A DNA stretch of 64,000 nt from Halococcus sediminicola. Its GTDB lineage: Archaea > Halobacteriota > Halobacteria > Halobacteriales > Halococcaceae. A program made the position numbers and the translations under genes. Positions 23,441 to 39,806 of the stretch are shown piece after piece. The stretch's first letter is position 1; each line of letters begins with the position of its first letter. The stretch spans positions 1 to 64,000 of the forward strand of contig NZ_BBMP01000005.1 in NCBI RefSeq assembly GCF_000755245.1, given 5' to 3'. The notes under the pieces are model-generated. The model saw nothing but the letters and a program-made list of their open reading frames with translations, ran no database searches and was not told where the DNA came from.

Positions 23441-26400
23441 ATGAGTAAGGCAATCCAGAACTCAGACGACGAAGAAACGAATCGGAGTCCGGCACAGATC
23501 ATCCCGCGCCACGTCGATACCGCGATGAAGGTCAACGGGTATCCCGTGAAGAAATTCGTTATCGGGTTCCTTCCGGCGGGGATCTGTGCGCTCGCGGGCG
23601 TTCTCACGGTGCTCATGAGTGGCCCTGCACTGCTCGCGGGGGTGTTCGTGTTGGTGTTCGCGCCGGTAGCACTCGTTCTCGGCGGCTGGGTCGTCATCAA
23701 GTCGAACTGGCATACGCCACCGCGTGAGCGCTTGCGAAACTGGCGGCGCTACCGCCGACTTCGGCGGTCGATGCTATGGAATCATTCCGAGACGGTTGCT
23801 CACGACCTCGCTGGCCTTGCTGAGATCTACGATGACGGGACAGCCCGGATGACTGACGGTCGTGTCGTCGGGCTGGCTGACATCAGCGGGCGGGCAACCG
23901 ACCGAATGACTGAGTTTGACGCGAACGAGATCGTGAACCAACTCGGTGGACAGTTCGACGAGACGATCAAGAACTTCGGGTTTCGGTTTTACACGACCAC
24001 GCTGCATACGTCGGATACGGACGCGCTCACGAAATCGTACCACGAGGCCGCACGGAGTGAGCGCCTTGAGGATCGTGTGTGGACATACGTGCGCGCGATC
24101 TGTCGGTCACTCGCGCAGTGGCGAAGCACCACTGACGATCCTGCATGGGACGCACCCGACCGTCGGCATTACATTGTCGTCGAGGCGACAGATGACGACG
24201 CCCGTTCACTACCTTCGCCGTCGATACGCGCTCGGCTGAATCCGTTTCACTCATCGGAGGATGTGACCGAACGGCAGCGCCGTCGGGCTGCTAAGCGTGA
24301 ATTGCTCTCGCGGCTCTCGAATGTTGAGGGGGCTATCAGTAACGTCGAGGGACTCTCGGCCGAGCGTATCTCGCCGGACGAACATGCACAGATACTCCTT
24401 GACTATTGGACCGGCGAGAATCACGCTCCCGACGACGAACTCGAACACGCCTTCCGCCGTGAGCATACCGGACCGACCGTCTGGCCGCCTGCACGAACCC
24501 AGAGCACACCGGATAGTGACGTTCCCATGCCAGGGGATGAGCGCGAGGACGCTGCCGGTGTGACTCAAGGTGAAGACGGAGACTCAGACAACGATCAAGA
24601 GGGCGAAACAATGCGTGCTCCGGGCAACCGAACGGCCCGCGAGCGCCTGTTTGGACTATTCGACGGGGTTGCCAGCAGCGACGAAGCGAGCGGTGCTGAC
24701 CATGTGGGACTATCATCTGAGGACGAGACGCCAGCCCAGCGGTTGCTCGCTCCCGGTATCTACGACGTGACCCGCGATTACGTGCGCGTCGGTGACCAAC
24801 TCTGTCGTACCTACTGGATCAGTGAGTGGCCGGATGAACCCGATTCGCTGTATTGGAAACCCATCTACACGCTGTTCGGCGCTGAACTGGATGGGGGCGA
24901 CCTCAATCCCGAGACGGACATTCCAGTCGATCTGGACGTGTCTATCCACGTCGAACCAGAGGACCGAGACGCCGTAATGAAAGAACTCTCGAAACAGTGG
25001 GGATCAATCGGTGCCGAAGGCGTCCAGCGTTCCGAGGGTGGGGGCGATGTGACCGCTATCGGTGTCGATTCCGATCAGGACATCTACACTCAGATGTACG
25101 AACTGCTGCGAACGACGAACGTTCAGCCGTGGCGCGTCAGCGCCTACGTGACTGTTCGTGCCGGACAGAAGCAGGCTATCGAGCAGTTCGAAGACACGCT
25201 CCGCGACTACGCCTCGCTAGATGCTGCGAAACAGGACGCACTCCGCGTGCGCTCTGAGCAGATTACCGATATGCTCGAAGCCGCGCCAACGAACTGCTAT
25301 CCCGTCATGGCCGGCGACCTCCACCATGCGGCCTTCGAGTCAGGGTCGCCAACCGGCCGAAACGCCTTCGCACAGATCGGCCGGCGCGATCTCAAAACTC
25401 AGTGGATGCTCGGCGACGGCGTGGCAGCCCTGTTCCCGCCCTGTTCCGATACCATCCAAGAAGAGGAAGGCATCGAATGGGGGCGTAACGAGCAAGACGG
25501 ACAGGTCATCAAGGCGAACCCGTTCGAGCGGGGTCTCGCTCCGCACATCATCACTATCGGGACCTCTCGGTCAGGGAAATCCTACTCGGCACAGAAAGCG
25601 TGTCAGCGCTGGTATTCCGAGGGTAAAGACCGAACGCTCATCGTCCTCGACACGCAGGGTGAGTTCGATGGACTGACGAAGGCGCTGAATGGCAAGCACA
25701 TCGTGCTCGGTGGACGGGATGCGGTCAACCCGTTCCATACCGAAGCCCCGCCGGAACACGCGGGCCACACGGGCGGACAGATGAGTCCGTTCACGATGAA
25801 GGCCGACAGCATTGTACAGTTCATCAAGGCGCTTGTCCGCACGCAAGGGTACGACCCGTCGATCTTTCACAACACGATTGAACAACTCGTGCGTCGGACG
25901 TTGATCGAGGCGGGAGCCGACCCGCGAGACCCCTCATCACTCGCCGATGCGGACGCGACCATGCGCGATTTCATCGAACTGTCCGAGAAAGTGATGGACG
26001 AGCCGAGTTCGCTCACTCTCGGCACTCACGACAAAGAACTCGGCAAGAAAGCTGAGAAGATCGCCGAGTTGCGTGACGCGCTCGGCGGGTTCATGGAGGG
26101 CCAGAAATACGAGTATCTGCTCGATGAGGACGCGACCGGCCTCATGGACGATGACGTAGACATGGCCTACTTGGACCTCCGACAGTTTCGGGATTCGAGT
26201 TCGGCAGAGAAGTCGGCCATGTTCCGGCTCATGCTCGATCAGGTCAACCAGAAGGTCAAGCGCACGTCCGGAGAGACGATTTTCCTGATCGACGAGGCGC
26301 ACTTCTTGCTTCACTCCGAGGAGATGGTGAACTGGTTGCAGAAAGCTGCCCGTGAGTGGGCACGCTACGATGCTTGCCTCTGGTTTTGCTCGCAATCGCC

Positions 26401-28072
26401 GCGCGAGTTCATCGCTCAGACCACGGGCGATGATGGCGAGAACAAACGCCGGACGATCTACGAGCAGTGTTCGACGGTGCAGTTCTTCCGCACACGAGGT
26501 CTCGATACTGATGACGAGGAAGACGACATCCTACCGAAGTTCGGGCTGAACGAGAGACAGGTGAAGCACGTCAAGAAGGGGATGCACCCGGGCAAGGAAG
26601 GCGACTACTCCCAAGCACTCATCCAGTTTGACGACCGGCCTGAAAGTTGGTTCCCGCTTCATATTGAAGCATCACCGGTCGAGGATGCTATCTGTACGTA
26701 CACGCCGCGCGAAGACGGTGACTTCGCGGCGTACATGGAGGCACAATGCGGTATCGAGCCGCCGGAGGAGAGTGGTTATACGCCGCCAGCAACTGCTGTT
26801 CCAGTTGTTCCCGACCCAGCAGAGGATGATGAGGAGTCATCACCAGTGGCTACAACCACTCCAACGGCGACCGCGGACGGTGGGACGCTGACTGGCCCAG
26901 TCGGCAACAGCACGAACGAGAGCGGTATCGATGCCCGGCGAGCCACCGATACGGACGCGGCCCATGATTTGCTCACCGTGGACCCGAGTACTCTCGGCGA
27001 GCGCTCTGGGTCAACTAACCATAGCAGAACAAGCGTTGAGCAGACAGAAGCCGCATCGCATGACGACAACGCTGACGGCAACAATGCGCCCGACGCCGGC
27101 AACGGTACTGACTCTGAAACCTACGAAGGATCGGACTGGGTGGATGATGCTGCTCTGTACGATGTACACGCTGAATCTGAGCGAGAGGACAAAGATATGG
27201 CGCCCACGGGAACCACGACGGCTGCCACTCCTGCTTCGACGCCCAACGCTACCGAATCAGCGGAGACGAGTGACGCAAGGACACGAGAAGGACTAGACAC
27301 AGAGACGGAGAGCGAGCAGGACCCAAGTTCTGATGAATCCGCGAGTGACGGCGGTTTGAGCGAGAGTTGTGAGGAAGAAGATGCGGCTGTTGAAGAACCG
27401 AACCGGGAAACCGAGGTGAGTCGGCGAGGGCTACTGAGCCGGTTCAGAGGCAGCATTAGTTCTGCTTTCGATCATCCGGCTACCGAAAAATCCCAGCTAG
27501 ACGTCACTGACATCGGTATCGTGGATGCAGAGAAAGCCACGGTGCTACGCGAAGCAGGCTTCGAGACGGTCACAGAGGTCTATACGGCTGAATCGACCGC
27601 ACTCACAACAGTCGAGGATATCGACGAGACGAATGCTACCTACATTCAGGACGGGGCCGAGCAAGCGCTGGAGGCTTCGGCTGTGTCTATGCCTGCCGAT
27701 GCTGGTAAGGTCCACACGGAGGACGCTCACGGTTCTGAAACCAACGGGACCAGTGAGCAGTCAGTCGAGGAAGCACAACCTCCGGATGTTTCCGACGGCG
27801 ATGAGAGCGCCGATGCAGCCGAGCAAACGTCCGAGAGCACCGACAACCAGCCTGTGCTCACGGATCTTCAGCAGGTCGGCGACAACCGGGCCGATGAAAT
27901 CCACAGGGCGGGCCTCAAGACTGTCCAGGACGTGGCGACAGCCGATCAGAACGCGCTGACCAATGTCGAAGGTATCGGCGAGGCACGGGCCGAGACGATT
28001 GCCGAGAGTGCGAATACTCTGATCAGCGACCAATCGGATGGCGGGGTAGCCGATGCTGGAGGTGATGGGTGA
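23441..28072 (+). CDS. VirB4/TraC-like conjugation ATPase with N-terminal PrgI-like membrane domain and C-terminal HhH domains
   Basis: A 1543-residue protein that would power a type IV secretion/conjugation channel. Residues 38-92 form a two-helix membrane hairpin (KKFVIGFLPAGICALAGVL) like PrgI/VirB3. The middle is the VirB4 N-domain, interrupted by an acidic linker near residues 350-425. The ATPase has Walker A (GTSRSGKS, residues 707-714) and Walker B (TIFLIDEAHF, 946-955). The last 500 residues are low-complexity acidic. They contain two helix-hairpin-helix-type repeats: IGIVDAEKATVLREAGFETV near 1353-1415 and QQVGDNRADEIHRAGLKTV to VEGIGEARAETI near 1473-1526. Such a DNA-binding tail is unusual for VirB4. 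Stop and next start are 1 bp apart. Confidence 0.82.
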   Translation: MSKAIQNSDDEETNRSPAQIIPRHVDTAMKVNGYPVKKFVIGFLPAGICALAGVLTVLMSGPALLAGVFVLVFAPVALVLGGWVVIKSNWHTPPRERLRNWRRYRRLRRSMLWNHSETVAHDLAGLAEIYDDGTARMTDGRVVGLADISGRATDRMTEFDANEIVNQLGGQFDETIKNFGFRFYTTTLHTSDTDALTKSYHEAARSERLEDRVWTYVRAICRSLAQWRSTTDDPAWDAPDRRHYIVVEATDDDARSLPSPSIRARLNPFHSSEDVTERQRRRAAKRELLSRLSNVEGAISNVEGLSAERISPDEHAQILLDYWTGENHAPDDELEHAFRREHTGPTVWPPARTQSTPDSDVPMPGDEREDAAGVTQGEDGDSDNDQEGETMRAPGNRTARERLFGLFDGVASSDEASGADHVGLSSEDETPAQRLLAPGIYDVTRDYVRVGDQLCRTYWISEWPDEPDSLYWKPIYTLFGAELDGGDLNPETDIPVDLDVSIHVEPEDRDAVMKELSKQWGSIGAEGVQRSEGGGDVTAIGVDSDQDIYTQMYELLRTTNVQPWRVSAYVTVRAGQKQAIEQFEDTLRDYASLDAAKQDALRVRSEQITDMLEAAPTNCYPVMAGDLHHAAFESGSPTGRNAFAQIGRRDLKTQWMLGDGVAALFPPCSDTIQEEEGIEWGRNEQDGQVIKANPFERGLAPHIITIGTSRSGKSYSAQKACQRWYSEGKDRTLIVLDTQGEFDGLTKALNGKHIVLGGRDAVNPFHTEAPPEHAGHTGGQMSPFTMKADSIVQFIKALVRTQGYDPSIFHNTIEQLVRRTLIEAGADPRDPSSLADADATMRDFIELSEKVMDEPSSLTLGTHDKELGKKAEKIAELRDALGGFMEGQKYEYLLDEDATGLMDDDVDMAYLDLRQFRDSSSAEKSAMFRLMLDQVNQKVKRTSGETIFLIDEAHFLLHSEEMVNWLQKAAREWARYDACLWFCSQSPREFIAQTTGDDGENKRRTIYEQCSTVQFFRTRGLDTDDEEDDILPKFGLNERQVKHVKKGMHPGKEGDYSQALIQFDDRPESWFPLHIEASPVEDAICTYTPREDGDFAAYMEAQCGIEPPEESGYTPPATAVPVVPDPAEDDEESSPVATTTPTATADGGTLTGPVGNSTNESGIDARRATDTDAAHDLLTVDPSTLGERSGSTNHSRTSVEQTEAASHDDNADGNNAPDAGNGTDSETYEGSDWVDDAALYDVHAESEREDKDMAPTGTTTAATPASTPNATESAETSDARTREGLDTETESEQDPSSDESASDGGLSESCEEEDAAVEEPNRETEVSRRGLLSRFRGSISSAFDHPATEKSQLDVTDIGIVDAEKATVLREAGFETVTEVYTAESTALTTVEDIDETNATYIQDGAEQALEASAVSMPADAGKVHTEDAHGSETNGTSEQSVEEAQPPDVSDGDESADAAEQTSESTDNQPVLTDLQQVGDNRADEIHRAGLKTVQDVATADQNALTNVEGIGEARAETIAESANTLISDQSDGGVADAGGDG
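28058..28066 (+). promoter_or_regulatory. Strong Shine-Dalgarno that decides the VirD4-like start
   Basis: GGAGGTGAT lies 7 nt before ATG 28074 and inside the end of the VirB4-like gene. It supports ATG 28074 over the in-frame ATGs at 28053 and 28065 and shows internal translation in the operon. Confidence 0.7.
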
Positions 28073-28073
28073 G

Positions 28074-31000
28074 ATGAGCGACAGCGACATCGGTGATCCT
28101 ACTAGTTACGCCGGAGGTGCCGATACTGGCGGTCTCGGAAAATCCTATTCGGCCGCGGACTACGCAGCCAGTGAAATCACACCAGAAATGGCCGCAGAGC
28201 TTGCTCCACCGAACGACGTAGAGCAGGCCATCTCCGTGCGGCCTCATCGTGATAACGGTGGGATCGAAGCGATGATCGAAGTCCTGGAATCGCTGCACAC
28301 GGTCGAAACCACTCGAAAGGGCCTCCGCCGCCGCACGGTCAACGTCTCTCCCGCCCACGCAGCCGAGATACGGTACACCGCCGACGAGAGCGGCGAAAGA
28401 TCACTGTCTCTTCAGTACGTTCCAGGCAGTCAATCGCTCGCCGGAACCTTCGAGGGGCAGCTGCAGACGCGCTACGATGAATCGTTATTTGACCGGGCCA
28501 ATCCTGCGCTCTTGCCGGTCAAACAAACCACTGCTGCCGACGAATCCAGTGGTGCCAACGGAGAATCCGCCTATATCTCAGGCGCAACACTCGCGCTTCG
28601 CAAATACACGCTCTTCCCGATCAAGAATGTTTCATTGCCGGGCTTTCGTTCCGACCCGACCGGTGCGATTATGCAGGAGATGGTCGACTCACAGGATGAT
28701 GTAGCGCCAGACGCGGATGTCGTGGTCCAAATCATGTTTCGACCCGAAGATCGCGGGTGGCGACAGGGCGTGTCCGGCGGTCATGGGCTTACTGACGGAG
28801 ATGACCCGAATATCACTGGTGAGCTATCCCTTCAAGAGCTCTCGTTCAACCTCCGACAGCCGACTATCAAGAAAGAGCGGATGACGTTCACCAAGGAGAG
28901 AGTTGAGTATCCTGCCTCGAAGGTAGACAAGAAAATCGCCAATCTTCTCGAGGAGCAGCAGGGCGAGAAAGGCTGGCATCTGTGCTTGCGTGTGTTCGCG
29001 CTCTCGGAAGACCCCGAGGTAGCGAAACGGCGTGCATCCAAGACCGCCGGGATGTTCGAGAACTTCTACGAAGCCAATAGCGAGCAAACATTTGTCCCTC
29101 AGCCAATCAACCAGCGCGACCTCACTGACGAGTACGCTGACGCGGCCGCACGAGAATTCGAGGAGACAGGTATCGTCAAAGCACAGGGCGAGGTCGCCGG
29201 TCTCGTGAACATCCCCGAAGCGAAGGACATTGCCACGAACAAGATGCGGTGGTCGCTCACGAAACCCGGCGACGGTGTGCCACCGAAAACCCCGCGCTTC
29301 CCGTTCGATGATTACGGAGTCGCCAGTGCGAGCGACCACCTCAAACAGACAACGATCTTCGACGCTAGCAATCCGGGCGACCCGTTTTACTTTGGATGGG
29401 GGGCAAAGCACGGCACTGAGGCTGGCATCTTTTCAAAATTCTTGGATGCACACATGTTTATCGCCGGCCGCACTCGATACGGGAAAACAGTCCTCACCGA
29501 GCATTTCTGCTCACAGGTATTCGAGCGCGGCGAGGGCGGTCTCGTCATTGATCCGAAAGGCGATGACGCGGATGATTTCATTCGAGAATGGCCTGATCAC
29601 CGCGATGAAGACGATCTGATTGTGATGGACCTCGGGCTGAATCCCGAGGATGAACCCTACGAGAACATTCCTCGGTTCAACTTTATGGAGATACCGCCGG
29701 GGTATGACCCTGACTCGCGGTTCGCGTCAACGATGATCGAAGCTCTCGCCGACGATATCGCCGCGATGGTTGCTCAGTCCGGTGGCTCCGAAAAGTACCT
29801 CGGCGCTCTCATGAAGCGCGTAACCAAGACCGTCTCGAGAGGATTGCTACGCTCCGGCCGTGGGGTGAGCCTACTCGATCTTGCCTGCGCGTGTTCATCG
29901 CAGACTGGGCTCTCTGAGTTCTCGCGCTGGATGGACGACGAGCGCATTACGTTCATCCGAGAGACCGCCCACCGCTTCGAGGAAAAGGAGGATGCGGACC
30001 TCGAACCGCTCGCCGGCCGGATGGACGAGTGGATTCATAACGACGCCATCCGCGACCTCATTTCCGCACGTGACCCGTCGTTTTCGATTCACGAGGCTGT
30101 TGAGGAGGGGAAGGTCATCGTGCTCCGGTTCGCTAAAGGAGCAGGCGAAACCGAGCGCCGACTGCTCACCACAGCACTCATTCGGCGAACATACGCCTCG
30201 AAGCGTGTCTGTGATAACGATAGTCCGTTCTATCTGGTTTGTGACGAATTCGACAAGATAGCTACTGAGGAATCCAATCTCCATACGATTCTCTCAGAAG
30301 CGGGCGGCCACAACTATCGCTGCGTGATGGCCTGTCAGGCTCCCGGCAACCAGCTTCCTGGCCGGCTGAAAAACACCGTTGGCAACCAGTGTGATACGTT
30401 CCTCACGTTCAATCCAGGCACGAAAAACGCTGATTTCGTTGCCGAACATCACTCGGTTGAGGCGGAGACACTTCGGGAGATGCCTCGATACAAATGCTAC
30501 CTCCGTACCCATACCTCGACCGACGACAACACCCACTCGTATCTGGTCAACGCTTTCGAGCCGATTGAAGAAGTGCGTGAGAGTGTGACCGGTGAGACGG
30601 GTATGAGCGACGAGGAAGTCGAAGCGCTCAAGCTCCAGTCGATGGAGCGCTACGGCGAACCCATCGAGTCAGCAGAGGAACAGCAGCAAGAATCAGCATT
30701 CTACGAGGGCGGGGCAGTCACACCGGGTGAAGGTGGCCCGACATCGCTGAATATGGACGACAAGGAGGTGCGAAATCTTGCCCTGAAAGCCGTCTTCGAC
30801 GAGAGTATTCGGCAGGGCGACCCCGGTGGGTTCGTCGCGGTCGAGGAGTGTGTCGAGCGGCTGCAGCGGTATCTGCCCGAAGGAGAGACGATCAACGACG
30901 CGGGCCGAGCGTGGCGCAACGTCCTTCAGGAAGTCCCCGATGCATACCTCGATAACCGTGAGGTAGACGACCAGATGGAGGTCAGAGCTACCGACCGCGG

Positions 31001-32024
31001 ATTCATGAACGTTGGCGCGTCGGAGAACGATGGGAAAGCCGAGCACTGGGCACCGATGGCGAATGCCTACATTCCGTTCACGCAACTCGGCTTCGTGATG
31101 GATATCCCGGCTCAGACAGGCGATGAAATGCCCGACGGTCTCGCAAAGCTCGATGATGCTCTTCAGATCGAGGACATTGACGACCCGGCGAAGATCGCCG
31201 ACCGAGTGAACGACTACCGGGAATCCAACGAGTTGCTAACCCGTCTCGCTGGAACGAAAACAGCGTATATCGAGTCGGAACACACGACCGGCGCAACCCA
31301 GCCCTCCCAGACCATTCGGAATCTAGTGCAGGCGCACAACCGAGGCCATCGCTGCCTGTTCTTCGCCCGCGAAAGCGTTGCCGAGCAGGTCTATAATACG
31401 GTAGCGCACGAGCCGATGTGCTGCCGGAGTAACCACCCGGAAAGCGACGAGAAGCGATTCTATACGAGCACGACGACGCTACGAATCGACGGCGAGGAAA
31501 TGACGCGCCCCGGCGAGGCCGAGAACGTCTGGGTCCACGACACGGAGACTGGTCAGTACATCCTGCGTGACCGAGCGGGGACGGTTCACGCGCGCTTCGA
31601 CACGCCAGCGGACATCTTTACTGATGCGAGCGCGTATCCTGACGGTGGCAACCGCAACATCAAGCCACCAGTCATCCCCGAGTACGAAATCGGCGGGGAG
31701 GACGTAACGAAGATCGAGTGGGACATCATTGTGGTTCCCGAGCCAGAGCGCGACGAGGAAGGCAACGAGAGCACGCTTACGCCGGCCGACCTCAAACTCT
31801 ACCGAGAGGGGGCGAAGAACATTCCGCTCATTGATCTCACTGAAGACGTTACAGAAGGTGAAAACATCGAACCGAGCGGTGGCAAGCAAGGATCATCAAC
31901 CAACTCAGAAACCGATGAGATGCCCGGACAAGGCAGAGACGATGATGCAGTCGAATCTACCTCCGAGCAACATGAAGACGAAGGGGATTATCTTGAGGAT
32001 GCTCTCTCTGGCGTCTTCAACTGA
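28074..32024 (+). CDS. VirD4/TraD-like coupling ATPase with long C-terminal extension
   Basis: A 1316-residue protein that would recruit DNA or relaxosome to the channel. Residues 60-400 form an N-domain with a VirB4-like feel (SLQYVPGSQSLAGTFEG, VVVQIMFRPEDRGW). The P-loop is FIAGRTRYGKTVLTEHF (about 463-475) followed by LVIDPKGDDADD. Walker B is FYLVCDEFDKIATEE (about 718-732), then GHNYRCVMACQAPGNQLPG, a typical T4CP/HerA sensor block. After residue 860 there is a wHTH-like segment and a 300-residue domain with CCRSNHPESDEKRFYTSTTT that I do not recognise. No N-terminal membrane helices are seen, so membrane contact may be through the VirB4-like partner. Confidence 0.8.
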   Translation: MSDSDIGDPTSYAGGADTGGLGKSYSAADYAASEITPEMAAELAPPNDVEQAISVRPHRDNGGIEAMIEVLESLHTVETTRKGLRRRTVNVSPAHAAEIRYTADESGERSLSLQYVPGSQSLAGTFEGQLQTRYDESLFDRANPALLPVKQTTAADESSGANGESAYISGATLALRKYTLFPIKNVSLPGFRSDPTGAIMQEMVDSQDDVAPDADVVVQIMFRPEDRGWRQGVSGGHGLTDGDDPNITGELSLQELSFNLRQPTIKKERMTFTKERVEYPASKVDKKIANLLEEQQGEKGWHLCLRVFALSEDPEVAKRRASKTAGMFENFYEANSEQTFVPQPINQRDLTDEYADAAAREFEETGIVKAQGEVAGLVNIPEAKDIATNKMRWSLTKPGDGVPPKTPRFPFDDYGVASASDHLKQTTIFDASNPGDPFYFGWGAKHGTEAGIFSKFLDAHMFIAGRTRYGKTVLTEHFCSQVFERGEGGLVIDPKGDDADDFIREWPDHRDEDDLIVMDLGLNPEDEPYENIPRFNFMEIPPGYDPDSRFASTMIEALADDIAAMVAQSGGSEKYLGALMKRVTKTVSRGLLRSGRGVSLLDLACACSSQTGLSEFSRWMDDERITFIRETAHRFEEKEDADLEPLAGRMDEWIHNDAIRDLISARDPSFSIHEAVEEGKVIVLRFAKGAGETERRLLTTALIRRTYASKRVCDNDSPFYLVCDEFDKIATEESNLHTILSEAGGHNYRCVMACQAPGNQLPGRLKNTVGNQCDTFLTFNPGTKNADFVAEHHSVEAETLREMPRYKCYLRTHTSTDDNTHSYLVNAFEPIEEVRESVTGETGMSDEEVEALKLQSMERYGEPIESAEEQQQESAFYEGGAVTPGEGGPTSLNMDDKEVRNLALKAVFDESIRQGDPGGFVAVEECVERLQRYLPEGETINDAGRAWRNVLQEVPDAYLDNREVDDQMEVRATDRGFMNVGASENDGKAEHWAPMANAYIPFTQLGFVMDIPAQTGDEMPDGLAKLDDALQIEDIDDPAKIADRVNDYRESNELLTRLAGTKTAYIESEHTTGATQPSQTIRNLVQAHNRGHRCLFFARESVAEQVYNTVAHEPMCCRSNHPESDEKRFYTSTTTLRIDGEEMTRPGEAENVWVHDTETGQYILRDRAGTVHARFDTPADIFTDASAYPDGGNRNIKPPVIPEYEIGGEDVTKIEWDIIVVPEPERDEEGNESTLTPADLKLYREGAKNIPLIDLTEDVTEGENIEPSGGKQGSSTNSETDEMPGQGRDDDAVESTSEQHEDEGDYLEDALSGVFN

Positions 32025-33534: not shown

Positions 33535-34011
33535 TCATTCATCGAGCCAGTCCTGAGCCGTTTCTTCCCGAACACCGCCGGCCTCAACTGCGATATGCAC
33601 CATTGCTTCTTTGATGTTCTCTACGTCGTCCCGAAGCTCCGCAACTTCCTCTTGCACCTCTTCGAAATCCTCCGGCCGAACGAGAGACGAGGCAGACACG
33701 TCCAGCCCATCCGAACAAAATTCCTCCCCACGGTCAGTCAGCTTCCACACGATAGCCCGTGCTCCACGCCCCGTATAGACCCGGTCAATTTCCTCGATCA
33801 ATTCCCAATTTTCGAGCCGGCTTGTGTGGTGGCGAATGCTCCCGCTGGGAACGTTTGACCGCTCCCGTAACTCTGAGGTGTTCATCGCACGATTGTCAGC
33901 AGCGAATAACAGTGTCAGGATGTTCCGCCGTGCTTCTCCGAGGTGGTCACGCATCTCCTCGAATGAGGGAGGAAACTCACTGGGGCTGTCCTGTTCAGTA
34001 GCGTCGCCCAT
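33535..34011 (-). CDS. Winged-helix regulator with C-terminal coiled coil
   Basis: A 158-residue protein with a MarR-like wHTH (LGEARRNILTLLFAADNRAM, NVPSGSIRHHTSRLENWELI, a wing around YTGRGARAIVWKLT) and a C-terminal coiled coil (VQEEVAELRDDVENIKEAMV). This type is frequent on haloarchaeal plasmids and viruses. It is transcribed away from the T-depleted region that starts about 40 bp upstream and could control or be part of that region's biology, for example replication or partition. Confidence 0.78.
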   Translation of the reverse strand: MGDATEQDSPSEFPPSFEEMRDHLGEARRNILTLLFAADNRAMNTSELRERSNVPSGSIRHHTSRLENWELIEEIDRVYTGRGARAIVWKLTDRGEEFCSDGLDVSASSLVRPEDFEEVQEEVAELRDDVENIKEAMVHIAVEAGGVREETAQDWLDE

Positions 34012-34059
34012 GGTCCGATATTTTCCTCACGTAGCTATAATAATATTCCGATATATAGC

Positions 34060-35210
34060 TTTATCAGACCGCACCGACACCAAAACACCCGACAAAGAGG
34101 AACCCAAAAACATACCGAGCAACCAATCTAAGGGCGGCAACCCAAGCAACCAAGAGCACCGAAGCGCGAGAACTGCCGACTGCATCCAGCAGGAACTACA
34201 GAGGGCATCCAAGCAAAGTGACCAGCAAAACTGGCATCCAAATCACCAGCATGCTGATATAGAAATCAAGCCGGCGAAGCACACCGACAGAAGACCGCTG
34301 AGTAAGACATCGTGGCCGAGATACAGAGTCCAGGACTTCTACCTGAGCAGGAGGCAGAACCGGTGGAGTAAACCAGCACCGTGTGAGCAGCGAGCATCCC
34401 GACAGTCCAGTATCTACGAGCAGACCAACACTGTGAGTGAGTAACCACTGGACAGGCCAGTAAGACCAACAGCCGGACAGTCAACGGCGCGTAGCGACCA
34501 CCGTCCTCCGACAGTCACGGATACTGAGTACTGGTCCCGAACTCCGGGAGAGAAAAGCGACAACGGGCCACGGACAACAGCCCGAATATGAGAGAAGAGA
34601 GGACTGGAAGCGTCCATGTCCCATCAAGGGAGAAGACAGAGCGCCGGGCAAATCACAAGCCAGTCCAGAGAGGCACACAGCGCCGTAGAGAGCGTGTTGT
34701 ACTCACCACGGAGAGGAAGAAGCCACGACTAAGCACAACCCGCCGAGAGAGCGGATGCAGTACCTCTGAGACACGCAAGAACATCGAGCTTTCCAAGCAA
34801 ATGTGGCTACTGAGACACCGACGGCCGCTGAGAGCGAGAGGCTTCCGTCAGACTACGCGAAGCAGCGCAGCAAGCGCTACCAACAGCACTGACAGCAACG
34901 GGCCAGCCGGCCGGCAGAACCAACTGAGCGGCCAGCCAGCCGAGTGTGGGCGACATCTACACTTCCAACAGCAGCTACCCACGAGCGACAACACCGACTC
35001 ACAACCAACAGCGACGCTACCAACAGTACAGTACCGGCAGGGCCGGATGCCCCACCATGAGCGTACATGCTGGGATGCCGGCCGAGCTATGCTGCAAGAT
35101 TCCATTACTTGGAGTGACTCTCAGCTGGTCTCTGATGCAGTACCGTAACACAGTGTATCAGAACCCGGCAGCAACGCCTGACAACGAGTGAGTTAACACC
35201 CCGAGGGAAA
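34060..35210 (+). other. T-depleted non-coding region (about 1.15 kb)
   Basis: Individual 60-base lines here hold as few as 2-4 T against about 20 A (for example 34621-34680 and 34861-34920), a strong strand asymmetry seen nowhere else in the window. Reading frames give Arg/Ser/Thr/Gln-rich, low-complexity products quite unlike acidic haloarchaeal proteins, so I do not call genes. Short words such as GACAGTC, CAGCA and CCAACAG recur. It lies between the secretion genes and the Orc1 region. Possible roles are an origin or transfer-origin region or a long non-coding RNA. Confidence 0.65.
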
Positions 35211-35220
35211 CGCACAAGCG

Positions 35221-35376
35221 GACTGTCACCCCATGCGACACAGCGAAGCCGACTGTCCGGGGACTGCCTGCCACTTGTGCATCATGGATGCCAACAGAAG
35301 GTGCTCTCTCCCGACTGTCCGGTGGCGAAATGAATCCCTGGACTGTCCACCAGCGAGAGCTTGAAACCGACTGTCC
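35221..35376 (+). repeat. GACTGTC iteron-like cluster
   Basis: GACTGTC starts at 35221, 35251, 35313, 35341 and 35369 (four followed by C), spaced 30, 62, 28 and 28 bp. The reverse complement GACAGTC occurs at 34401, 34476 and 34510 in the T-depleted region. The spacing near 28-31 bp (about three helical turns, doubled once) is typical of protein-binding iterons. Confidence 0.55.
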
Positions 35377-36016: not shown

Positions 36017-36213
36017 TCAGCTCGATTGAAATCGATGCTTAGTATCGCCGTGTGGACACTCGATGACGTCCATCGTCTCACCGTTCGCGAGTTGGCGTTC
36101 GTCCTCGGCGACAGGCTCGCCACATGACTGGCAGATACGCTCGGCTCCACGTCGGTACACCAGATATTCTCATCGCTGTTCTCTTCGCCTCAGTCCGGGC
36201 AGTTCCAAGCCAT
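36017..36213 (-). pseudogene. Double zinc-ribbon protein, broken by a stop and a frameshift
   Basis: The frame opens MAWNCPD, then TGA where Cys is expected (the next residues GEENSDENIWCTD fit a CPxCGEENxxxxxxCTxC ribbon). After WCTD the frame shifts by one base and continues AERICQSCGEPVAEDERQL, then ECPHGDTKHRF to a stop at 36017. Two lesions in 190 bp argue for a pseudogene. It lies 6 bp after the preceding small gene, so it was the last gene of that operon. Confidence 0.6.
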
Positions 36214-36219
36214 TAGCTG

Positions 36220-36438
36220 TTATTCGTACATGTTCTTGGGATCGTTCGGCACGTCGAGCTTGCGCTCTTCCATTGCCTTCATGTGCCAGTGTTGGACCCG
36301 TGTCTGGAAGAGTTGCATCGCCATCTCGTCGACTGCGTCGGTATCATAGTCACGGGCGATCTCCTGTGCATCCTCCATACTCATCTTCATTAGCTTCTTG
36401 TAAAAATCTCTCATTGATAGCTTGCTCTCGGAACTCAC
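36220..36438 (-). CDS. Small acidic helical protein
   Basis: A 72-residue frame from GTG 36438 directly after the previous stop; ATG 36414 (MRDFYKKLMKM) is equally likely. It is rich in Met and acidic residues (SMEDAQEIARDYDTDAVDEM, then HWHMKAMEERKLDVP), with no recognised family. Part of a leftward operon of small genes near the replication region. Confidence 0.5.
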   Translation of the reverse strand: MSSESKLSMRDFYKKLMKMSMEDAQEIARDYDTDAVDEMAMQLFQTRVQHWHMKAMEERKLDVPNDPKNMYE

Positions 36439-36516
36439 TCACTCCCCTGTCGTGGTCGGGGTTTCGGTCGGGGTTTCAATCGCCGTCACGGTCCCGAGAT
36501 CCGTGAACGCTGTCAT
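36439..36516 (-). CDS. Possible 25-residue peptide
   Basis: ATG 36516 to TGA 36439 encodes MTAFTDLGTVTAIETPTETP and TTTGE, with the next gene starting right after its stop. Length and Thr/Pro-rich end make it doubtful; the adjacency is the only support. Confidence 0.25.
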   Translation of the reverse strand: MTAFTDLGTVTAIETPTETPTTTGE

Positions 36517-36571
36517 GTGGCCGTCTTGGTTTCATTATCCGTTGAGATATTTGAGGATCAGTGCTCTCCTC

Positions 36572-36835
36572 TCAGCTCTCCGCATCAGCCGGGTGTTTGT
36601 CGCCGTCCTCGTAGATGATATCACCGACCGTGATCGCCTCGCCAAGCTCGGTGCTCAAACGCTTGAGGGCCATGTCGACATCTCCTCTCTCGTCAGCGTC
36701 GGTATCAACATTAGCGTTCTCCTCGCTGTCTTCATCCGGGATGTACCACAACACCGTTCGCCCGCCCGTATCCCGCTTTTTGACTTTGCGCTCGAATCGT
36801 AATTCATTGAGTTTGTTCCGCGCGGTCAGCGTCGA
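36572..36835 (-). CDS. C-terminal part of a small winged-helix protein (5' end lost)
   Basis: The recognisable part begins about 36835 (TLTARNKLNELRFERKVKKR, then GGRTVLWYIPDEDSE), the wing and last helix of a small haloarchaeal wHTH protein, followed by an acidic tail with VGDIIYEDGDKHPADAES. Upstream the frame becomes Arg/Pro-rich antisense of the neighbouring gene, so the N-terminal helices are missing. The stop at 36572 is clean. Confidence 0.5.
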   Translation of the reverse strand, partial: STLTARNKLNELRFERKVKKRDTGGRTVLWYIPDEDSEENANVDTDADERGDVDMALKRLSTELGEAITVGDIIYEDGDKHPADAES

Positions 36836-38801: not shown

Positions 38802-39806
38802 ATGATCCAAGATGCCCGCGTCCTTCAAGACGAGTTCATCCCGAAGGAGATTGGGCATCGTGATCAGGAGATGAATGCCCTCTCGCGGGCACTTGATCCA
38901 GCAACGCGCGGTCAGTCTGCTGAGACCACCTTCCTGTTCGGTCCCTCCGGCGCGGGGAAGACCTGTCTCGCACGCTTTGCTCTCGACAGGCTTCGGGAGG
39001 CCGTGATCGATCTCAACCACCAGTACGTTAACTGCTGGCGCGACTACAACCGCTTTCGCGCGCTCTATCGCATCGTCGAAGCCACTGGACCCACCTATGA
39101 CATCCACCGCCAGTCGACACCCACCGATACATTGCTCGACCGTCTCGATGAGTACGACGGTCCACCGTTCGTCGTCATCTTAGATGAGGTCGATCAGTTG
39201 CAAGACGAGGACGTGCTCTATGATCTCTACCGAATGCGAGGCGTCTCAATGATCCTGATTGCTAATCAAGAAGAAGAATTGTTCAGCTCTCTCGACGACC
39301 GCCTCGTCTCACGTCTCCGGGGTTCGACACGCATCCGCTTCGAGAAGTACGACCTCGACGAACTGGTATCAATTCTGGAAGACCGAGTGCAATGGGGTCT
39401 TACCGAGGATGCACTCACCCACGAACAGTTGGCATTGATCGCCGACGCCGCCGCGGGTGACGCCCGCGTGGCGATCTCCATCCTTCGGAGTGCAGCGCGG
39501 CGGGCCGAACAGCAAGAGGCGGAGACAGTCGATTTCGAGACAATACACGAGGCGATTCCGGAAGGACGAACTGAAGTCAAACAGAAAAACATCGAACAAC
39601 TCACGCCTCACCAGCGCACACTCTATGAGATCGTCAAAGAATACGAGACACTCGCCCCGAGTGACCTCTACGAACGCTACAGAGAGCGCGTCGACAAGCC
39701 CCGATCCAACCGTACGGTACGCAACTATCTCTCGAAACTCGCTCACTACAACCTCGTCACTAAGGAGGGCGATGGACGTGGGCGGACCTATCGTCTTCTG
39801 CCCTGA
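38802..39806 (+). CDS. Orc1/Cdc6 replication initiator (plasmid type)
   Basis: A 334-residue AAA+ initiator that binds origin DNA and loads the MCM helicase. Walker A is LFGPSGAGKTCLA (residues 47-54 core), Walker B is FVVILDEVDQL (about 123-133), and sensor-type SMILIANQEEELFSSLDDR comes next, followed by the arginine-rich RLRGSTRIRFEKYD. The C-terminal winged helix covers about 265-334 (LTPHQRTLYEIVKEYETL, NRTVRNYLSKLAHYNLV). The length is shorter than chromosomal Orc1 proteins (about 400 or more), which is usual for plasmid paralogues. ATG 38802 matches the conserved RVLQDEFIP start. Confidence 0.92.
   Translation: MIQDARVLQDEFIPKEIGHRDQEMNALSRALDPATRGQSAETTFLFGPSGAGKTCLARFALDRLREAVIDLNHQYVNCWRDYNRFRALYRIVEATGPTYDIHRQSTPTDTLLDRLDEYDGPPFVVILDEVDQLQDEDVLYDLYRMRGVSMILIANQEEELFSSLDDRLVSRLRGSTRIRFEKYDLDELVSILEDRVQWGLTEDALTHEQLALIADAAAGDARVAISILRSAARRAEQQEAETVDFETIHEAIPEGRTEVKQKNIEQLTPHQRTLYEIVKEYETLAPSDLYERYRERVDKPRSNRTVRNYLSKLAHYNLVTKEGDGRGRTYRLLP

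Follow-up and report, generated by a model that had tools for sequence, protein, structure and literature searches.

The window analyzed here, a 64,000-nucleotide stretch of Halococcus sediminicola DNA (contig NZ_BBMP01000005.1), contained a non-coding element whose main feature was an ordered array of short, inverted sites. The first half of the array was located on a strand that was strongly depleted of thymine (T), and a predicted promoter was located where the depletion began. A first-pass annotation of this DNA had drawn attention to the T-poor stretch; the array and the promoter were absent from it. The element, for which a literature search returned no description, was previously unnoticed, and it may be where DNA transfer begins or a large RNA of a new kind. 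Based on its sequence and genetic context, we infer that a haloarchaeal conjugation module uses the element as its cis-acting transfer locus, which would work as an oriT or clt, have a new architecture, and be transcribed across its T-poor half. We give this reading somewhat less than an even chance.

On the + strand, positions 34074 to 35040 of the window consisted of 0.33 adenine, 0.29 C, 0.28 G, and 0.11 T. Since C and G were about equally frequent, it appeared that T was specifically replaced by adenine. The 800-bp interval starting at 34071 (adenine, 0.329; T, 0.108) had an AT skew of 0.507, which was the strongest among the 800-bp intervals of the 222-kb contig; the runner-up was 0.321 and the standard deviation was 0.111. 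Between 34012 and about 35010, the AT skew of consecutive 200-bp bins was +0.43 to +0.57, and it was +0.20 and +0.12 in the bins that followed. The strong strand bias reported in the first-pass annotation was therefore an extreme of the whole contig. That annotation had also reasoned that its idea would fail if the skew did not go beyond that of neighboring genes, and this was not the case: the skew of the T-poor element exceeded that of every neighboring gene, including the virD4 coding strand, which reached 0.32. Composition and element comparison refined the limits of the T-poor left half, which carried the b and a sites described below, to 34074 (a conserved CCGA) through about 35040. The less skewed, motif-bearing right half of the same element extended to about 35380. 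An opposite, T-rich stretch with a skew of -0.29, which was among the strongest in the contig, was located about 1 kb past the element (36031 to 36830).

The first-pass annotation considered the stretch to be non-coding, and our results were in agreement. The longest + strand frame inside 34072 to 34911 had 38 amino acids, and a Pfam scan of the two longer frames that overlapped the T-poor element yielded no match. Across eight related element pairs, the three codon positions had about equal substitution frequencies, without a 3-base periodicity, and the indels between close homologous elements were mostly not multiples of 3. The codon-like substitutions and in-frame indels of a protein-coding gene were not observed, and the element is non-coding.

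A DNA search with the window element against plasmids, its own genome, and 146 relatives identified no DNA homolog. Homologous loci were found via relatives of the adjacent winged-helix protein and others were found by motif pattern; hence, the sample covers elements with one or the other. A two-copy motif pattern used on viral contigs was over-permissive, and its matches were taken as chance and discarded. Among the matches listed for a three-copy pattern in genome contigs, most were bacterial chance matches and a handful were haloarchaeal loci. More than 20 related loci with the same element were identified, in Haladaptatus, Haloterrigena, Natrinema, Actinarchaeum, and another Halobacteriales isolate. 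The homologous T-poor non-coding strands in these other plasmids and genomes were immediately upstream of a divergent winged-helix gene, and in the annotated loci, virD4 was the constant neighbor on the far side of that gene, with a few genes in between or as a remnant only in some cases. Thus, a check suggested in the first-pass annotation, a search for homologous T-poor regions beside VirB4/VirD4-like genes in other haloarchaeal plasmids, was positive.

When read away from the winged-helix gene, the class i sites were b (GGCACCC), a (GGACAGTC), B (GGGTGCC), and A (GACTGTCC). Sites B and A are the reverse complements of b and a, and the order was b-a-B-A in nearly all elements. In 23 elements, the left parts contained 123 a sites, 47 b sites, and zero A or B sites (170:0), and the right parts contained 122 A sites and 85 B sites, along with 1 a site and 4 b sites (207:5). 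The polarity of the right half is not explained by T-poorness because adenine and T are nearly balanced there. A comparison of the a and A flanks for orientation was ambiguous, site a being near-palindromic, and b/B fit a reverse complement. Spacings between neighboring sites clustered at about 25, 50, 75, 100, and 125 nt, and only the 50-nt peak was favored by the selection of some loci with a pattern that placed about 45 to 59 nt between three A sites. The best period was 24.5 nt (vector length R, 0.69; 264 spacings). Since R was 0.17 for the 10.5-bp helix, a simple one-face DNA array was not indicated.

In close element pairs, the sites were 92 to 99% identical versus 74 to 88% outside the sites (spacers). 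Several elements or relics were present per plasmid. Four loci (L325, L330, L331, and L347) had the right half only (A with or without B) and were located away from recognizable transfer genes; these right-half-only arrays are probably relics or separately moving parts. Such partial arrays away from transfer genes fit the idea that the whole element is what is left of a tandem repeat that decayed under neutral, strand-asymmetric mutation. We consider this idea highly improbable, as the sites were far better conserved than the spacers, their order and polarity were kept across divergent plasmids, and the sites were replaced in concert in the other classes described below. Two additional observations were made in the surveyed loci. 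First, several plasmids (L036, L042, L043, and L045) carried a thermonuclease-family gene close to the far side of the array; in Actinarchaeum, this gene was elsewhere on the plasmid. Second, a T-poor stretch of Haloferax gibbonsii plasmid pHGLR3 (L050:10070-10470; skew, +0.39 to +0.67) was located upstream of a gene that is beside virD4 and annotated as a chromosome segregation protein; this stretch was rich in CGACGA and AGCGACG, which are repeats unlike the class i motifs.

In the window, motif comparison identified the following sites in the + strand orientation. The left half contained b sites (GGCATCC) at 34204 to 34210 (b1) and 34233 to 34239 (b2), followed by a sites (GACAGTC) at 34401 to 34407 (a1), 34476 to 34482 (a2), and 34510 to 34516 (a3). 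The right half contained B sites (GGATGCC, the reverse complement of b) at 35045 to 35051 (B1) and 35073 to 35079 (B2), and A sites (GACTGTC, the reverse complement of a) at 35221 to 35227 (A1), 35251 to 35257 (A2), 35313 to 35319 (A3), 35341 to 35347 (A4), and 35369 to 35375 (A5). Site B3 (35286 to 35292; GGATGCC) was within the A block. The b variant GGCATCC was matched by the B variant GGATGCC, indicating that the change was shared. The counts of a, A, b, and B sites (3, 5, 2, and 3) exceeded the Markov expectations of 0.17, 0.08, 0.06, and 0.05, and they were reached in 4, 0, 1, and 0 of 2000 Markov resamples, respectively, with motifs that had been picked beforehand from the element comparison.

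Three sequence classes were distinguished, and all of them kept the b-a-B-A order; in the variant classes, b changed with B and a changed with A. The evidence for classes ii and iii comes from few elements, and searches with their patterns yielded few real matches in 392 genomes, plus several simple-repeat matches. Class ii (b, GACCCCC; a, GGATTCA; B, GGGGGTC; A, TGAATCC) was found on contig C24 of the same genome, where the array had the order b-a-B-A, one stray a site, and a T-poor strand. Its relatives were in genomes G165, where a and A were found, and G009, where b, a, and B were found and a search for A identified no site. One winged-helix subfamily was common to the class ii arrays of the three genomes. 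Class iii (b, GGACCCCC; a, GGATGTC; B, GGGGGTCC; A, GACATCC) was found beside virD4 in this genome, on contig C9, as well as on two plasmids of Halococcus; these arrays had a weaker strand bias and a few stray sites.

The C24 locus (G000:C24:50000-66000; L371) was a second transfer module with a near-identical VirD4 motor, in which the VirD4 C terminus, the winged-helix gene, and the array motif (GGATTCA/TGAATCC) were replaced. In 25-amino-acid bins, the VirD4 proteins of the window contig (C5) and C24 were mostly 92 to 100% identical up to residue 875 or so, and 16 to 44% identical after about residue 900. Differences extended to the winged-helix gene and to the array that lies past it. In this single paralog pair, the array, the VirD4 C terminus, and the winged-helix gene were exchanged together as a block. 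Class i sites were unchanged beside winged-helix proteins with different recognition helices, as were class iii sites, and thus the winged helix alone was not obviously the reader. Similarity of the VirD4 C termini did not track class either, since they could be more alike between classes (54%) than within class i (35%). The existence of three classes that share an architecture, with two of these next to related transfer modules in a single genome, amounts to a natural specificity-swap experiment.

The first-pass annotation placed the stretch after conjugation-like genes and beside a winged-helix gene read away from it, and this placement was correct. On the + strand, the window contained a gene for a VirB4-like conjugation ATPase (23441 to 28072; NCBIfam VirB4 models, E values to 7e-23) and a gene for a VirD4/TraD-like coupling protein (28053 to 32024; TrwB_AAD_bind, 2e-4; SXT_TraD, 3e-8). 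The ATPase had a C-terminal helix-hairpin-helix DNA-binding domain at residues 1473 to 1525 (Pfam HHH_5, 3e-14). The winged-helix (MarR/PadR-like) gene, which was identified with a predicted model and Foldseek, was on the - strand (33535 to 34011), divergent from the T-poor strand, and its homologs flanked the element in the loci used. Like an oriT or clt, the element was therefore located beside coupling and transfer genes, with VirD4 and the winged helix present in the annotated loci.

The VirD4 protein had a motor at residues 1 to about 885 and a C-terminal domain at about 885 to 1323, which was predicted to start with a winged-helix-like fold (pLDDT, 76) and contained an invariant PD at residues 1027 to 1028 and ExE at residues 1074 to 1076. 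A sequence search of the C terminus against the PDB returned nothing, and the predicted model had weak winged-helix matches among PDB folds (E above 0.08), including AspA. At the motif level, the PD and ExE may resemble those of PD-(D/E)XK nucleases; no nuclease was prominent among the matches of the fold search. No relaxase was found among the neighbors scanned with Pfam/NCBIfam or in the plasmid annotations read. If a nuclease fused to the coupling protein is real, it could substitute for a relaxase.

The array of near-palindromic sites directly adjoined a small winged-helix gene, and the weak fold matches of the VirD4 C terminus included AspA. Both observations are also compatible with a plasmid centromere, in which the winged-helix protein or a partner would bind the array and couple it to a ParA-type motor as in AspA/pNOB8 and TubR/tubC. 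We consider a centromere quite unlikely because the constant neighbor was VirD4 and not ParA or TubZ, and because the complete 42-kb Actinarchaeum plasmid had ParA about 10 kb off, across the transfer genes. Moreover, plasmids carried several elements or relics, the site sequence did not follow the winged-helix recognition helix, and a T-poor strand would be unexpected.

The first-pass annotation also noted that the stretch precedes an Orc1 region. An Orc1/Cdc6 gene (38802 to 39806; TIGR02928, 2e-58) was indeed 3.4 kb beyond the element in the window, but none was seen beside the other homologous elements with annotation. That gene could serve an iteron replication origin opened on the T-poor strand, and iteron origins resemble inverted site arrays. 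Such an origin is very doubtful, as there were several elements per plasmid, no AT-rich unwinding stretch was found inside the element, and the GC-skew extremes of the 42-kb Actinarchaeum plasmid (one plasmid) were at about 0 and 27.3 kb versus 8.3 to 9.8 kb for the array. Of the meanings that the first-pass annotation attached to the strand bias, transfer and RNA remain, and replication is disfavored.

The T-poor strand had a predicted promoter, a TATA-like box (TATATAG; 34052 to 34058, + strand) that was about 22 to 26 nt before the conserved CCGA in several elements and less clear in one subgroup. Alignment placed the conserved beginning of the T-poor stretch, a predicted transcription start, at CCGAC (34074 to 34078, + strand), and the CCGA was about 50 to 95 nt from the winged-helix start codon in the aligned elements. 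When elements were aligned at CCGA, the T fraction went from 0.27 in the preceding 60 nt to 0.12 after it, stayed at about 0.10 for 600 nt past the start, and rose at the B block. Hence, the depletion began at the predicted transcription start, the promoter being a consensus match only and the 60 nt before CCGA being AT-rich promoter DNA anyway. In every case, the depleted strand was the one whose reading direction leads away from the winged-helix gene. Because T-poor and A-poor DNA would be equally unstructured, this constant sense suggests selection on RNA. A U-poor RNA would form fewer pairs, contain no U-tracts, and make stronger RNA-DNA hybrids. Archaeal termination uses U-tracts with aCPSF1 (PMC8716108). 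A terminator search past the last A site identified no consistent T-run.

The T-depletion, its start at a predicted promoter, and its constant sense are best explained if the functional product is a U-poor RNA that is long (about 1 to 1.7 kb) and untranslated. The 5' half of this RNA would be unstructured and carry a/b, and its 3' half would carry the complementary A/B; pairing in cis (interleaved and pseudoknot-like) or between molecules would build a scaffold or regulate the transfer genes. Being poor in U rather than A favors an unstructured RNA, which would lack G-U pairs, and a function in DNA only would presumably not prefer one sense. Complementarity is also consistent with the strict polarity at the center of the near-palindromic a site and with the joint changes of b/B and a/A in every class, but inverted protein sites would covary equally. 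In addition, 150-nt windows on either strand did not fold better than their dinucleotide-shuffled versions (z, -0.34 and -0.30; control, -0.32), and an Rfam scan of the element identified no real match to a known non-coding RNA family. Site-flank complementarity was not in excess within elements (6.64 versus 6.60 between elements), the b-a-B-A order cannot nest, and cargo genes interrupted the element in some loci. We view the long RNA as possible and, on balance, unlikely. In a more elaborate version, the element would represent a new, bipartite class of nucleic-acid elements for archaeal conjugation. The complementary motifs of the array would be interleaved, its U-poor transcript would pair internally or with the plasmid (as an R-loop or RNA scaffold), transfer would depend on RNA, and the site sequences would be an exchangeable plasmid identity code. 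This version strikes us as rather improbable.

The transfer locus that we favor accounts for VirD4 as the constant neighbor, for the exchange of its C terminus, for sites that are short and oriented, and for the presence of several copies on a plasmid, proposed to be one per module or relic. The VirD4 C terminus and/or the winged-helix protein would read the oriented sites via their DNA-binding domains, and the coupling ATPase would load with a defined polarity on both halves and pump the plasmid into the recipient. A divergent promoter, probably controlled by the winged-helix protein, would direct transcription through the left half; the transcript would be rich in purines and poor in U, and its low U content would avoid archaeal U-tract termination and weak rU:dA hybrids. 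By forming an R-loop, the transcript could keep the DNA strands apart and license processing, a step that is a guess. The transfer-locus and long-RNA readings can be combined, with the transcript opening the locus. Counted against a transfer locus were the nonhelical period of about 24.5 nt, a class that tracked neither the winged helix nor the VirD4 C terminus, the partial arrays away from VirD4, and the fact that the exchange was one paralog pair.

We know of no established start of DNA transfer in haloarchaeal plasmids with VirB4/VirD4-like genes. The element is conserved, concrete, and open to testing as a cis-element in genera that can be cultured and for which complete plasmids are available (Haladaptatus, Haloterrigena, and Natrinema). 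If the RNA reading is true, the element would specify a new type of archaeal long non-coding RNA with an unusual composition signal that is missed by annotation pipelines. The large bacterial non-coding RNAs GOLLD, ROOL, HEARO, and OLE are long, non-coding, and found on mobile elements. The element resembled them in these respects and is possibly transcribed, but it had no Rfam match, local structure, or nested pairing, and it was U-poor with periodic motifs.

Among DNA loci, the element was like the winged-helix centromeres (AspA of pNOB8 and TubR-tubC) in that a winged-helix gene adjoined repeated near-palindromic sites. In contrast to these centromeres, it had a VirD4 neighbor and a constant T-poor strand, occurred several times per plasmid, and combined two types of motif in inverted halves. 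It was like a relaxase-type oriT in being non-coding and beside transfer genes, with several putative protein sites and a specificity that may be tied to the coupling module. Unlike such an oriT, it had a far longer array and a strand-wide T depletion, and no nic-site signature or relaxase was identified. The Streptomyces protein TraB, which assembles on the 8-bp TRS repeats of clt, translocates double-stranded DNA (PMC4170104). The clt locus is the nearest working analogy, since both loci consist of non-coding, short, oriented repeats beside the gene for a hexameric DNA pump, and no relaxase gene was recognized here. Compared with clt, the element had a VirD4/VirB4-type pump rather than an FtsK-type pump and sites known from sequence, and it combined a T-depleted strand and a length of about 1 to 1.7 kb with a lattice of about 25 nt, on which each of the two site types occurred in both polarities and the order b-a-B-A was fixed.
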